The position numbers were made by a program, and so were the translations under genes. Below are positions 3,649 to 19,572 of a DNA stretch of 20,650 nt, piece after piece. A model generated the notes under the pieces. It saw only the letters and a list, made by a program, of their open reading frames with translations. It made no database searches and was not told the origin of the DNA. Each line of letters begins with the position of its first letter. The first letter of the stretch is position 1. The DNA lies in IMG/VR virus record IMGVR_UViG_3300007540_000161, positions 1-20,650 of that record; one strand, written 5' to 3'. The DNA is from a virus.

Positions 3649-5568
3649 ATGCCCAGTAATTATTTGCCAACCAGTTACCAAGAATTTATCCACCTGTCAC
3701 GTTACTCAAGGTGGTTACCAGAAGAAGGGAGGCGAGAAACGTGGGAAGAAACAATCGGGCGTTACTTTGATTTCTTTACCGAACATCTCTGGGATACGTG
3801 TGAATACAAACTACCTGCTAAACTCCGCAACGAACTAGAAGAAGCAGTACTGACTCAGAAGGTCATGCCATCTATGCGTTGTCTGATGACTGCGGGTGAA
3901 GCACTCAAGCGCGAGAACATTGCTGGTTATAACTGCTCATACATTGCAGTTGACAAACCTTCCTCGTTTGATGAAATCCTCTATGTACTGATGAACGGTA
4001 CTGGTGTTGGGTTCTCGGTAGAACGACAGCACATCTCACAGATGCCACGTGTAGCAGACGAGTTTCACGATACCGACACCACTATCGTTGTGGGTGACAG
4101 CAAACTCGGTTGGGCAAAGGCAATGAAGGAACTTGTGGGTCTGCTGTATGCTGGGCAAGTACCTGCGTGGGACATGAGCAAAGTTCGTGAGGCAGGTGCA
4201 CCGTTGAAGACCTTTGGTGGTCGTGCGTCTGGTCCTGCGCCATTGGTATCTCTGTTTGAATTCTGTGTTGAGACTTTCAAGGCTGCTGCTGGTCGCCGGT
4301 TGACCTCAGTAGAGTGTCACGATATTGTCTGTAAGATCGCAGAGATTGTCGTGGTTGGTGGTGTTCGTCGTTCTGCGTTGATTTCGCTGTCTAACCTGTC
4401 AGATGATCGTATGCGACACGCAAAGGCAGGGCAGTGGTGGAACGACTACGGGCACAGGGCACTCGCAAATAACTCTGCTGCATACACTGAGAAACCTGAT
4501 ATCGGTATTTTTATGGACGAGTGGAAAGCACTCTACGATTCCAAGTCGGGGGAACGTGGTATTTTCAATCGTGAGTCTGCTAATATGGCAGCAATCAAGT
4601 CTGGTCGAAGGGAGGTGGGTGACCACGAGTTTGGCACCAACCCTTGTTCTGAGATCATTCTTCGCTCTCGTGAATTCTGCAATCTCTCTGAGGTTGTGGT
4701 TCGTGCGGGTGATAACCGCGAGTCGCTACTTGAGAAAGTCCGTCTCGCAACTATTCTAGGAACGTTCCAGTCTTCACTAGTGAACTTCAAGTATATCTCA
4801 AAGACTTGGAGCAAGAACTGTGAAGAGGAACGTTTGCTTGGTGTGTCTATGACAGGGATTATGGACAACAAATACACCAATGGTAAACTGGGCAACCTTC
4901 CTTCGCTTCTAGAGGAGCTCAGAGAAGAGGCAGTGAAGGTTAATGCTGAGTTATCTAAGAAATTGGGAATCAATCAGTCTGTAGCGATTACCTGCGTTAA
5001 ACCCTCTGGCACCGTTTCACAACTAGTCGACGCTGCTTCTGGTATTCATGCAAGGCATAATCCTTACTATATTCGCACAGTGCGTGGTGACAAGAAAGAT
5101 CCTCTGACCCAGTTTATGATTGACAAAGGGTTTCCTGTTGAAGACGATGCTATGAATCCATCACACACGGTGGTGTTCTCATTCCCCGTCAAAGTAGACA
5201 AGGGTGCTGTGTTCCGCACTGATATGACTGCTATTGAACAGTTAGAAATGTGGTTAGTTTATCAGAAACATTGGTGTGAACACAAACCATCCGTTACTAT
5301 CTCTGTCAAAGAACATGAGTGGATGGATGTAGGTGCGTGGACATATGCCAACTTTGACTACATGAGTGGTGTATCATTCTTACCATTTAGTGACCACACC
5401 TACAAGCAAGCGCCTTATCAAGACACCGATGAAGCAGGATACAAAGAGTTGCTAAAGATTATGCCAAAGGATGTTAATTGGTCAGATCTAAGCGAATACG
5501 AATTGAGCGATACCACAGTGGGTAGTCAAGAGTTGGCTTGTGCTGCTGGGAATTGCGAGATAGTATGA
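3649..5568 (+). CDS. nrdJ: Adenosylcobalamin-dependent ribonucleotide reductase (class II)
   Basis: The 639-aa product reduces ribonucleotides to deoxyribonucleotides using B12-generated thiyl chemistry, supplying dNTPs for phage replication. The visible core motifs are C96 (AGYNCSY), the NPCSEI active-site loop with C333 and E335, C344 in FCNLSE, a KPSGTVS phosphate-binding loop (451-457), and a C-terminal CAAGNC pair (C631 and C636). The 11-residue spacing of C333 to C344 matches C408/C419 of the Lactobacillus monomeric class II enzyme, and C96 fits its C119. At 639 aa it is somewhat shorter than that 739-aa enzyme. It has its own promoter, and its stop overlaps the zinc-ribbon gene. Base composition looks richer in G+C than the glycan genes. 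T4 itself uses class I NrdAB instead. Confidence 0.95.
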   Translation: MPSNYLPTSYQEFIHLSRYSRWLPEEGRRETWEETIGRYFDFFTEHLWDTCEYKLPAKLRNELEEAVLTQKVMPSMRCLMTAGEALKRENIAGYNCSYIAVDKPSSFDEILYVLMNGTGVGFSVERQHISQMPRVADEFHDTDTTIVVGDSKLGWAKAMKELVGLLYAGQVPAWDMSKVREAGAPLKTFGGRASGPAPLVSLFEFCVETFKAAAGRRLTSVECHDIVCKIAEIVVVGGVRRSALISLSNLSDDRMRHAKAGQWWNDYGHRALANNSAAYTEKPDIGIFMDEWKALYDSKSGERGIFNRESANMAAIKSGRREVGDHEFGTNPCSEIILRSREFCNLSEVVVRAGDNRESLLEKVRLATILGTFQSSLVNFKYISKTWSKNCEEERLLGVSMTGIMDNKYTNGKLGNLPSLLEELREEAVKVNAELSKKLGINQSVAITCVKPSGTVSQLVDAASGIHARHNPYYIRTVRGDKKDPLTQFMIDKGFPVEDDAMNPSHTVVFSFPVKVDKGAVFRTDMTAIEQLEMWLVYQKHWCEHKPSVTISVKEHEWMDVGAWTYANFDYMSGVSFLPFSDHTYKQAPYQDTDEAGYKELLKIMPKDVNWSDLSEYELSDTTVGSQELACAAGNCEIV

Positions 5569-5734: not shown

Positions 5735-6145
5735 ATGACGTGGTTACTTGACAATAAACCTTTCGAACCCAACGCAGATGATTTAGAATCTCTCGTTGGG
5801 TTTGTTTATTGTATCCATGAAAAAGAAACTGATATGAAATATATCGGCAAGAAACTGTTCTGGCGAAGTAAAATCTTACCTGTTACAAAAACCCGTTTGC
5901 GGCGTAAAAAGACCCGAGTAGAGAGCGATTGGATGTCCTATTACGGTTCTAGCATTCTGTTGAAAGAACAGGTGGAGAAGAACGGAGCGAACGCCTACGA
6001 GCGAAATATCCTTAGGCTCTGTACAACCAAAGGGCAATGCTCTTATTATGAGGCGAAGTATCAGTTCGAGCACGACGTTCTTCTTAGAGATGATTATTAT
6101 AATGAATTTATTGGGTGTAAAATTCACAGCAAACATTTAACTTGA
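5735..6145 (+). CDS. SegE-like GIY-YIG endonuclease
   Basis: The product is 136 aa. The N-terminal GFVYCIHEKETDMKYIGKK segment (22-40) fits a GIY-YIG nuclease core, in which the first block is FVY and the second YIG. An arginine/lysine-rich segment follows, and a downstream YYEAKYQ supplies the conserved glutamate expected of the active site. This matches the SegE-type free-standing nucleases of T4-like phages, which cut related phage DNA and spread by conversion. It lies between the nrdJ unit and a new promoter, a typical intergenic position for such elements. No intron is evident around it. The family call rests on motif reading. Confidence 0.72.
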   Translation: MTWLLDNKPFEPNADDLESLVGFVYCIHEKETDMKYIGKKLFWRSKILPVTKTRLRRKKTRVESDWMSYYGSSILLKEQVEKNGANAYERNILRLCTTKGQCSYYEAKYQFEHDVLLRDDYYNEFIGCKIHSKHLT

Positions 6146-17078: not shown

Positions 17079-17820
17079 AATAGTTCATGTAATCGGTAAC
17101 GGCGATCAGGCGATCCAATATTTAGAAGAACCCCGTCGGGGCATGAAACTTTTATGCAACATGCCTCCATTCTCTATCCCTCGGTCAGAAGTTTATGCAA
17201 CCTGCATGGTGGACTTTAAGATGATGTCTGCGCTGAGTGAAGGGCATGTAAATTTAGATATGTATCCATGGGTGCTCGGGACTCGCCCAAAAATTTGGAT
17301 GGAGGATCCTAGACAGTCATCTTTCTATTTGAAATATGCTCCTCTCATAAAAGAGTTCAACCTGGTTGTTCCAGATTACTGTGGTGAACCTGGAAGTCCT
17401 CAGGCAGCAACGAATTTTAACTGCGGACATATGGCGGTTCATTATGCCTGCAATCGTCATAAAGCAACTGAAGTGCATATGTACGGATTTGACACTCTGT
17501 TTGAATTCAACATGAGGTCGATTACTGATGTGTATCTACATAGTGATCGTTCTGATACCAACAATTACAGACTGATCAACAACTGGCGACCTATTTGGCA
17601 TAACATGTTTGCTGAATTTCCAAACACGAAATTCGTTTTTCATCATAATCACGACGATATTAAGATTCCCAAACAGAAAAACATGGAGTTTGTTACCTAC
17701 CGAAATAAAAAGTTAGAGGTAAAGGAAAAGAGAAAGGCAGAACTTGCAGAAGAAGAATTGGCAAAACTCAATCGCAAACAAAGGCGTGCTGCGCTTGCGC
17801 AACAAAGAAAGGCAAGATAA
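17071..17820 (+). CDS. Glycosyltransferase-like protein with charged C-terminal tail
   Basis: The product is 249 aa. It starts MDRIVHVIGNGDQAIQYLEE, with a glycine motif VIGNGDQ that resembles the nucleotide-sugar site of sialyltransferase-type (GT42/GT29) or MptE-like proteins. AATNFNCGHMAVHYACNRH and VHMYGFDTLFEFN follow. The last 35 residues are a charged helical tail (Glu/Lys/Arg/Ala-rich) that could mediate assembly. AAGGAAG at 17054-17060 is the ribosome-binding site. It is the last gene of the glycan cassette. The assignment to a specific transferase family is tentative. Confidence 0.55.
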   Translation: MDRIVHVIGNGDQAIQYLEEPRRGMKLLCNMPPFSIPRSEVYATCMVDFKMMSALSEGHVNLDMYPWVLGTRPKIWMEDPRQSSFYLKYAPLIKEFNLVVPDYCGEPGSPQAATNFNCGHMAVHYACNRHKATEVHMYGFDTLFEFNMRSITDVYLHSDRSDTNNYRLINNWRPIWHNMFAEFPNTKFVFHHNHDDIKIPKQKNMEFVTYRNKKLEVKEKRKAELAEEELAKLNRKQRRAALAQQRKAR

Positions 17821-17866
17821 TCAATAACTTATGCTAGGTTTTGTTATAAAGAAAACATAGTATAAT
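17821..17866 (+). promoter_or_regulatory. Promoter cassette copy 1 (upstream element + TATAAT)
   Basis: TCAATAACTTA at 17821-17831 begins 40 bp before TATAAT (17861-17866). GGTT is at 17837-17840. The same arrangement occurs at 18582 and 19350. No good -35 TTGACA is seen, so the upstream element and GGTT may replace it. ATG of the exonuclease gene lies at 17893. Confidence 0.75.
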
Positions 17867-17892
17867 AGATACTTAACCGAAAAAGAGCATAT

Positions 17893-18576
17893 ATGCAAAA
17901 GAGAGAAAGAGACCTATTTGAACACAGTGTGGTAGACCTAGGATATGAAGACTTATCTACAACCCAGATCGACGGTAAACGTCATTATGTAACACCAGAT
18001 AAAAATTATCCTTCGATCACGACTGTCCTAAGCGTATTGTCTGAAAAATCAATCAACGCTTGGAAAAAAAGAATTGGTGAAGAAGCAGCCAATAAGATTT
18101 CTTACCGTGCTTCTACGCGCGGAACTGCAGTACATGAATTAATCGAGAAATATGTTAACAATGATCCCAATTATCTTGCAGGATATATGCCGAACATTGT
18201 GGGCAATTTTCTCACTGTAAAGGATATATTGGATGAACGAATCGGAACAGTGTTCGGACAGGAGCTTCCGTTATACAGCGATCACCTTGGGGTTGCTGGG
18301 CGTGTTGACTGTGTTGCTGAGTTTGATGGGAAAATTTCAATCATCGATTACAAAACAAGCAGGAAACCTAAACTGCGAAAGTACATTGAAAACTACTTTC
18401 AGCAAGAAACTGCTTACGCCATCATGTGGGAAGAGCGAACGGGCATTCCTATTACCCAACTCGTTACCATAATTGCTGTAGACGATGAACCTGCTCAGGT
18501 CTTCATCGAACACCGCGATAACTGGACAAAGCAATTATTCGAGACCATTGAACTATATAAATCAACAAAACTGTAA
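17893..18576 (+). CDS. PD-(D/E)XK exonuclease, MGME1/RecB-like
   Basis: The product is 227 aa. The nuclease residues fit E124 (FGQELPL), D139 (GRVDCVAEF) and D152-Y-K154 (SIIDYKTS), preceded by ASTRGTAVHELIEKY (73-87) with His81. This is the arrangement of the PDDEXK_1/MGME1-type exonucleases common in marine T4-like phages, likely acting in recombination or DNA processing. It is the only gene between promoter copies 1 and 2. No zinc or iron-sulfur cysteine cluster of Cas4 type is visible. GAG upstream of the ATG is a weak ribosome-binding site. Confidence 0.82.
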   Translation: MQKRERDLFEHSVVDLGYEDLSTTQIDGKRHYVTPDKNYPSITTVLSVLSEKSINAWKKRIGEEAANKISYRASTRGTAVHELIEKYVNNDPNYLAGYMPNIVGNFLTVKDILDERIGTVFGQELPLYSDHLGVAGRVDCVAEFDGKISIIDYKTSRKPKLRKYIENYFQQETAYAIMWEERTGIPITQLVTIIAVDDEPAQVFIEHRDNWTKQLFETIELYKSTKL

Positions 18577-18581
18577 TAAAA

Positions 18582-18627
18582 TCAATAACTTAACAAGGGT
18601 TTCTTTTGAGTCAAAACGCGGTATAAT
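18582..18627 (+). promoter_or_regulatory. Promoter cassette copy 2
   Basis: TCAATAACTTA at 18582-18592 begins exactly 40 bp before TATAAT (18622-18627). GGTT is at 18598-18601. Downstream TATAAGCAAAAA and GGA are shared with copy 3. It lies in the gap between the exonuclease and the YodL-like gene. Confidence 0.78.
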
Positions 18628-18655
18628 AATCGTATAAGCAAAAAAGGAACGTGAT

Positions 18656-19033
18656 ATGACTTACTTAATCAACCAGTTTCACTTGTCGGAAGAAGCCCGA
18701 GACCACTTAAATTCAGTTGGTTGGGACGGTGACTTCGGCGACTTCCCTGAGATCGTGATCCAGCGTGATGTCAAGTTCATGGGCGGATCTAAGCACTACG
18801 AATCGTGGATGGAAGATCACTTCCAATCAGTTGCTCGTGTTACCGGTGTTGATACCCTTGAAGATGTATTTCATGTCGGTAACGGATACGGACCTGAAGG
18901 GTCTTGCATTCAGAAGTTCACTCGAATGCATTCGGTTTCTGTAGGTGATATCATCGTCAACGAGAAGTGTGGTACTGCATGGATGGTTGATGGTGAAGGT
19001 TGGTCTAACGTTGATTTTGGGAAGAAGTTTTAG
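18656..19033 (+). CDS. YodL-like phage protein (125 aa)
   Basis: The product is 125 aa. The C-terminal half has HVGNGYGPEG, then MHSVSVGDIIV (about residues 90-100) and a final Gly/Asp-rich segment, a pattern seen in YodL-like domains of small phage proteins. The N-terminal half is Asp/Gly-rich (VGWDGDFGDFPE). AAGGA about 9 nt upstream is the ribosome-binding site. The TAG overlaps the GTG start of the next gene, so the two are coupled. Function unknown; base composition is rather G+C-rich for the window. Confidence 0.65.
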   Translation: MTYLINQFHLSEEARDHLNSVGWDGDFGDFPEIVIQRDVKFMGGSKHYESWMEDHFQSVARVTGVDTLEDVFHVGNGYGPEGSCIQKFTRMHSVSVGDIIVNEKCGTAWMVDGEGWSNVDFGKKF

Positions 19034-19356
19034 TGTCTAAAAAACACGATCCGTTATATGAGTTCCCCAACCCCGAAACAGAAATCGGGGAACTCATAAA
19101 GCGCCGAAGACTCCAGATGCTCGTCCACAGCTGTCTCTACTACGCTCTCGACGAAAATATTTGGACAGATCACCAATATGACGCTGCTGCCAAAGAACTG
19201 GCAGAGCTCCTCAGAGGCAACCCAGACGCCTACAGCGATCGTTTCGACGAGTACTTTGAGGGATGGGACGGCAGTACTGGGTTTCACCTTCCTAGTCGCG
19301 ACAGTTGGGTGCTCGCTGCTGCACAAAACCTCTTAAAAAGTAAACAATATCAATAA
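19033..19356 (+). CDS. LigA Ia-domain-like small protein (107 aa), GTG start
   Basis: GTG at 19033 overlaps the TAG of the previous gene. The 107-aa product has RRRLQMLVHSCLYYALDENI and TDHQYDAAAKELAELL (about residues 24-60), which resembles the N-terminal Ia domain of NAD-dependent DNA ligases (Tyr-Tyr ... D-x-x-Y-D). The rest, EGWDGSTGFHLPSRDSW, is a phage-specific end. It lacks the adenylation domain and KxDG, so it cannot ligate by itself. It may bind NAD/NMN or modulate another enzyme, but that is inference. The 5' coding region contains two alternative hairpins. The stop codon is inside the upstream element of promoter copy 3. Confidence 0.65.
   Translation: MSKKHDPLYEFPNPETEIGELIKRRRLQMLVHSCLYYALDENIWTDHQYDAAAKELAELLRGNPDAYSDRFDEYFEGWDGSTGFHLPSRDSWVLAAAQNLLKSKQYQ
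19057..19098 (+). promoter_or_regulatory. Alternative hairpins in the 5' coding region
   Basis: TATGAGTTCCCC (19057-19068) is a perfect 12-bp inverted repeat of GGGGAACTCATA (19087-19098), with an 18-nt loop. Inside the loop, CCCCGA (19071-19076) can instead pair with TCGGGG (19085-19090). The two helices compete for 19087-19090, so only one can form at a time. The pair starts 24 nt after the GTG start. This may control translation or transcript decay. Confidence 0.5.
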
Positions 19357-19395
19357 CTTACGTGTGGTTTTATTCCGTAAAAAATAGAGTATAAT
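19350..19395 (+). promoter_or_regulatory. Promoter cassette copy 3
   Basis: TCAATAACTTA at 19350-19360 begins exactly 40 bp before TATAAT (19390-19395). GGTT is at 19366-19369. TATAAGCAAAAAGGAG follows and provides the ribosome-binding site for the 49-aa gene. The TAA stop of the gene before is contained in the element. Confidence 0.78.
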
Positions 19396-19422
19396 AGATC
19401 TATAAGCAAAAAGGAGTGTAGC

Positions 19423-19572
19423 ATGGTTGGTAACGGAGTTGGTTGTGTGTATAAAAAACCTGTAAAAAAAGAACCAGCGGTTTATTATGAATCCGAAATT
19501 GAAACTTTAATTGGTTTCATCGTTTGTGTTGTTATCGGCGTTGGCACTATCTTTCTAAGTCATTTTATCTAA
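19423..19572 (+). CDS. Small single-span membrane protein (49 aa)
   Basis: AAGGAG at 19411-19416, 6 nt before ATG, is a strong ribosome-binding site. The 49-residue product has an N-terminal soluble part (MVGNGVGCVYKKPVKKEPAV) and a C-terminal hydrophobic helix of about 20 residues (ETLIGFIVCVVIGVGTIFLS). It is a single-span membrane protein with its own promoter (copy 3). A holin or antiholin role is possible but unsupported; host-takeover peptides of this size are common in early phage regions. Confidence 0.75.
   Translation: MVGNGVGCVYKKPVKKEPAVYYESEIETLIGFIVCVVIGVGTIFLSHFI

Follow-up and report, generated by a model that had tools for sequence, protein, structure and literature searches.

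An IHF-consensus site next to the weak -35 element in a class of phage promoters

The stretch of viral DNA analyzed here, 20,650 nucleotides of IMG/VR record IMGVR_UViG_3300007540_000161 and called the window below, carries three similar promoters and the genes that follow them, all on the plus strand (Table 1). A preliminary description had labeled the gene behind copy 1 as an exonuclease, and its match to PHROG 298 (4.7e-72) upholds the label; the name "YodL-like" for the 125-aa protein behind copy 2 found no support in PHROGs or Pfam, where this protein has no family match. The 107-aa protein is little beyond the NAD+-binding domain Ia, the rest of the DNA ligase being missing, and its gene overlaps the preceding one and has its own stop codon inside the 13-mer of copy 3. 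No PHROG or Pfam family match was obtained for the 49-aa small protein. The proposal that each promoter drives a single gene is improbable: two overlapping genes lie after copy 2 and three closely spaced genes after copy 3, and no terminator-like sites were found on the plus strand between the genes after these two copies.

Table 1. Promoter elements and genes around the three copies (window coordinates)
Feature	Position	Strand	Remarks
Copy 1 A/T element, AGAA	17806..17809	+	10-13 bp before the 13-mer; 3/4 A/T
Copy 1 13-mer, AATCAATAACTTA	17819..17831	+	Begins with the last two bases of the preceding gene's stop codon
Copy 1 weak -35, TTTTGT	17839..17844	+	
Copy 1 -10, TATAAT	17861..17866	+	Transcription start expected near 17873
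PD-(D/E)XK exonuclease gene	17893..18576	+	PHROG 298 at 4.7e-72; Pfam PDDEXK_1
Copy 2 A/T element, AAAA	18567..18570	+	
Copy 2 13-mer, AATCAATAACTTA	18580..18592	+	Orthologous promoters in G001 and L412
Copy 2 weak -35, TTTCTT	18600..18605	+	
Copy 2 -10, TATAAT	18622..18627	+	Start expected near 18634
Copy 2 leader, GTATAAGCAAAAAAGGA and ribosome-binding site	18633..18655	+	Leader common across the class
125-aa protein gene	18656..19033	+	Relatives 85-88% identical
107-aa protein gene, domain Ia of NAD+ DNA ligase	19033..19356	+	Pfam PF22745, 2.1e-27; PHROG 6466
Copy 3 A/T element, AAAA	19335..19338	+	
Copy 3 13-mer, TATCAATAACTTA	19348..19360	+	
Copy 3 weak -35, TTTTAT	19368..19373	+	
Copy 3 -10, TATAAT	19390..19395	+	Start expected near 19402
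Copy 3 leader, TATAAGCAAAAAGGA and ribosome-binding site	19401..19422	+	
49-aa small protein gene, probably membrane-bound	19423..19572	+	82% identical in G001

The word TCAATAACTTA that had drawn attention to these promoters is present without mismatch at 17821, 18582 and 19350 on the plus strand and nowhere else in the window, with TATAAT exactly 29 bp after it in all three cases. When up to three mismatches were allowed over the 17 fixed positions of the combined pattern, three matches were found in the window against 0.15 expected, and none of 100 shuffled sequences reached three. The other similarities pointed out before were also recovered, namely the GGTT block at offsets 16-19 of every copy, TATAAGCAAAAA and GGA in copies 2 and 3, and TATAATAGAT in copies 1 and 3, and the promoter at 6142, which reads TTGACA-17-TATAAT, is indeed without the site. 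The claim that a -35 element is lacking did not survive the alignment of all copies, which revealed a weak -35 (TTTTGT, TTTCTT and TTTTAT) at a constant position, 7 bp after a 13-mer and 16 bp before TATAAT in the three window copies; the GGTT block is the end of this 7-bp spacer plus the first TT of the -35. The conserved unit is the 13-mer itself (starts 17819, 18580 and 19348), of which TCAATAACTTA is the 3' part and which occupies -54 to -42, where an upstream activator would bind, as had been suggested. All three 13-mers match the IHF consensus WATCAANNNNTTR exactly, the published form of which is WATCARNNNNTTR (PMC8421141, PMC9519438). The window holds six matches to WATCAANNNNTTR against 2.0 expected, and the three additional ones have no good -10 at that distance.

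Relatives were fetched by homology to the exonuclease after copy 1. The nearest one (G001, 131 kb, 89% identity) is T4-like, with DNA polymerase, DnaB-type helicase, SbcC-like, portal and major head protein families, and its DNA polymerase is at most ~54% identical to the polymerases of cultured phages among the matches listed. This genome contains 26 WATCAANNNNTTR sites, 8 of which, all on the same strand, lie 29-30 bp before a perfect TATAAT while the others do not; four more promoters with GTATAAT share this layout, their 13-mers deviating from the consensus at one position, giving 12 copies in total. They are mostly located in a 7-kb run of small genes without assigned function, and the remaining ones lie beside the DNA polymerase gene or before other function-unassigned genes. 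The same set of copies recurred in another relative of 112 kb, and between one and five copies were present in each of several additional contigs. Overall, the whole-class pattern was present in at least 25 stretches of viral contigs, with up to five sites per stretch, against a single match, in an Aquimarina assembly and taken as chance, in the bacterial and archaeal genomes of GTDB (257 Gb). The phage promoter class that had been suspected is thus real, with many more copies in relatives and almost none in cellular genomes, and the same figures speak against a class of bacterial host promoters.

Promoter-like sites in the motif-carrying contigs were also selected on the -35 and -10 alone. 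An IHF site with at most one mismatch lay exactly 7 bp upstream in 44 of the 56 promoter-like sites and at none of the 45 other offsets between 0 and 45 bp, in contigs that had partly been found through the motif, the window and G001 forming the independent part of the test. The exact consensus was present in 28-30 of 54-56 sites, and a site with at most one mismatch in 42-44. After reduction to 70% identity, 36 of 48 still had the site, compared with a mean of 0.07 in shuffled sequence. One class promoter has a perfect hairpin, TTGCCCTTCGGGGCAA, over its -35 and spacer (L060 10946-10994, L081 9662-9710).

A profile of 46 sites showed that WATCAA and CTTA are strongly conserved in the 13-mer and the three bases between them less so. 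At position 10 almost every site has C, a base that the IHF consensus does not demand, and the four bases that this consensus leaves free show a preference for TAAC. Downstream, the core promoter consists of G (40/46) before TTT (35/46), with loose inner -35 bases, a spacing of 16-17 bp and GTATAAT (41/46), followed by an TATAAGCAAAAAAGGA-like leader. Upstream, an A/T block that was never a selection criterion stands at -13 to -10 before the 13-mer (A/T in 93-100% of 43 sites), with mixed bases at -9 to -6. Lambda attP was taken as a yardstick: its H' site has an A-run at -14 to -9, the same place as the A/T block of the class, and the sequence of another attP site is AATCAACTACTTA. Strong IHF sites have been documented to carry an A-tract on their upstream side (PMC8421141, PMC9519438). 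The profile shows no conservation farther upstream than -13, and a distant UP element therefore does not seem to be part of the module, whose order is A/T element, ~9 bp, WATCAANNNNTTR, 7 bp and -35, in a fixed orientation.

Copy 2 is orthologous in three genomes (the window, G001 and L412) and has changed only where the consensus allows it. G001 has neither copy 1 nor copy 3: its exonuclease gene directly adjoins the gene before it, with no copy 1 promoter between them, and its 125-aa gene abuts the small-protein gene without a promoter, at the place that holds copy 3 and the ligase-domain gene in the window. Two other relatives (L134 and L136) have the 125-aa gene with a different upstream region and without the coupled site. 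As the listed relatives do not conserve copy 1 ahead of their exonuclease genes, the promoters appear to move as modules, and they are gained and lost together with genes.

The exact 13-mer was also found in front of other kinds of promoters in other phages. Before TTGACA and a -10, its spacing to TTGACA clusters at 4-9 bp (at least 33 non-redundant cases) and at 14-18 bp (at least 17), with one case at 10-13 bp, and the reversed word, used as a control, gave 42 listed matches and no comparable peak. The carriers include L004, L007, L034, L054, L071, L088, L109, L117, L216, L245 and others. The two spacing groups are about one helical turn apart, the pattern expected of a bend acting on polymerase; phase-dependent activation has been described for IS5-glpFK in E. 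coli, where IHF is needed for full activity (PMC2753651). A loose-gap scan with the exact 11-mer gave mostly chance matches at most gaps, with peaks at 26-27 and 29-30. Yet another promoter type has the 13-mer, then TGTACA or TGTACT and TATAAT, often with a common leader such as TTAATTGGAGAGATTG (L005, L018, L039, L015, L022, L040, L042, L069, L093 and L354), and some of these contigs carry tandem 13-mers ~29-30 bp apart. The A/T block precedes the exact 13-mer in at least 66 TTGACA-type and at least 22 TGTACW-type promoters of other phages, less sharply in the TTGACA type. Moreover, ATAAAATCAATAACTTA occurs at the annotated attP of Acinetobacter phage TRS1 and between divergent regulator genes of Pasteurella phage AFS-2018a (the pair L435 576-619 / L436 901-919), and both an attP and a divergent regulator intergenic region are places where IHF sites are expected. 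A blastn search of cultured phages with the 96-bp copy 2 promoter returned only matches of 19-26 bp at the IHF site, in Pseudoalteromonas, Pseudomonas, Xanthomonas and other phages, and the full promoter was present in none of the inspected matches. The regular coupling was not seen in T4, KVP40, phiM12, HTVC008M, P-SSM2 or C48C1.

From the letters of these sites we infer, with a probability of roughly two in three, that the class consists of early-type sigma-70 phage promoters with a weak GTTTWCT-like -35, in which an IHF site holds the UP position and IHF from the host probably acts as activator; binding, activation, early expression and the presence of IHF in the hosts are all part of what is proposed. 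Searches for MotA and AsiA (PF09114 and PF09010) gave no match in the 131-kb relative or in the other carriers, which may be incomplete, while the T4 positive control was matched, and no HU/IHF homologue was found in 10 phage records. With none of these proteins found in the carriers, the simplest assumption is that a host factor reads the site. Host IHF would bind with a footprint of roughly 35 bp abutting RNA polymerase, would bend the DNA by about 160 degrees and could thereby raise initiation at a promoter with a poor -35, either because it touches the alpha subunit or because upstream DNA is wrapped around the polymerase. Takeover and replication genes would then probably be expressed immediately and in a coordinated way.

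Several other explanations have to be weighed against activation by host IHF. The reader might be a phage-encoded activator, or some host protein that is not IHF, for example a DNABII protein of the HU type, that recognizes an IHF-like site. The near-invariant C at position 10 and the TAAC preference in bases that the consensus leaves free would agree with this, as would the poor -35, which is also seen in activator-dependent promoters, and an activator may have gone unrecognized because the carriers are fragments. However, the same 13-mer and A/T element occur in phages with quite different promoters, which favors a common host protein, the A/T element fits the layout of the IHF H' site, and MotA and AsiA homologues were lacking in the carriers when T4 was detected; we regard a different reader as unlikely. 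IHF is able to repress as well, and it might bind here to repress transcription, to act as a timing switch or to insulate genes from each other. Its footprint would abut the -35 region, tandem sites are present in some phages, and at position 55515 on the reverse strand of G001 a perfect AATCAATAACTTA stands directly before a ribosome-binding site with neither a -35 nor a -10, perhaps as a remnant of a class promoter. Activation nevertheless fits better with the tight fixed spacing to the -35 in every copy and with the two phased spacings in other phages, and a weak -35 would need help, so that such a negative or insulating role seems quite improbable.

Explanations that do without a further protein fare worse. 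If the site were an UP element, the alpha C-terminal domain would bind an A/T-rich stretch directly; the positions -54 to -42 do overlap the UP region, and the UP region of T4-like early promoters is A-rich. UP elements are A/T-rich without such specific conserved letters, whereas the class has an invariant C4, a nearly invariant C10 and a second block one turn upstream, and other phages have the same word at other distances, which leaves very little room for this explanation. Finally, the copies might be recent duplications of one promoter cassette, with the shared word reflecting ancestry only. The leader and ribosome-binding site are common too, and in G001 the genes abut where copies 1 and 3 are missing. 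The spacers between the elements have diverged freely but the elements have not, the orthologous copy 2 keeps its site in three genomes with changes only at consensus-allowed positions, and unrelated phages have nothing but the 13-mer and A/T pattern in common; ancestry as the sole cause can hardly be maintained.

A few single promoters of temperate phages are known to be stimulated by IHF. We found no description of a class of IHF-dependent promoters in lytic phages in the open-access literature, and a text search with the 13-mer returned only unrelated papers. Here, about a dozen promoters of one T4-like genome have an IHF-type site placed against the -35 in lieu of the UP element. More surprising than this is that the site recurs in unrelated phages. 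We tentatively suggest, at somewhat less than even odds, that several unrelated phage lineages independently fused in-phase IHF sites to TTTWCT, TTGACA or TGTACW promoters and that a host nucleoid protein activates their early regulons. If true, IHF fusion would be a general strategy of phage takeover, of which no description was found. The module would provide a sequence rule for spotting phage promoters in metagenomes and would point to IHF-bearing hosts of uncultured phages. A class II ribonucleotide reductase encoded in the window (3649-5568) is 62-66% identical to those of SAR116, Rhizobium and Roseobacter phages, an affinity that differs from that of the neighboring genes, whose relatives are T4-like; it would fit IHF-bearing hosts, and the gene may have been transferred. 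Loss of ihfA or ihfB is predicted to impair these promoters, a point that bears on whether phages exploit a nucleoid protein for takeover.

Among known systems, the class resembles T4 middle promoters in its poor -35 and good -10, and near -30 a small number of copies have TTGCTT or TTTGCT. The MotA box requires GCTT 12 +/- 1 bp from the -10, and this reading was rejected as GCTT is missing from most copies, including all three in the window. IS5-glpFK likewise combines an upstream IHF site and A-tracts with a sigma-70 promoter and helical phase, but its IHF site lies near -220, is transposon-borne and acts in a host operon (PMC2753651). Closer in kind are the IHF-stimulated promoters lambda pL and Mu Pe, which share with the class, as judged by the sequence of its sites, a host IHF site upstream of a phage early promoter. 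These are, however, single promoters, whereas the class has its site right beside the -35 in about a dozen promoters, and its position at -54 is not their classical arrangement; the Mu site located here lies ~70-80 bp upstream of the point where transcription is expected to begin. For lambda pL, the use of IHF together with a distant UP element is reported (title of Giladi 1998, as cited in PMC2753651), and in the class, by contrast, no sequence is conserved upstream of the IHF-type site and A/T block. The early promoters of T4-like phages have GTTTAC at -36 to -31 and an A-rich UP region (PMC2988021, PMC1524935). The class shares with them a GTTTAC-like -35 at about -36 to -31, albeit a partial match, the GTATAAT -10, the T4-like phage background, and the placement of one promoter ahead of many small genes without assigned function; it differs in a weaker -35 and in that an IHF-consensus site and A/T block replace the UP element (-40 to -60). 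With its GTTTAC-like -35 and GTATAAT, the class looks like T4 early promoters in which the UP position has been given to IHF, and it is a real promoter class, one that crosses IHF-assisted phage promoters with early promoters of the T4 type.
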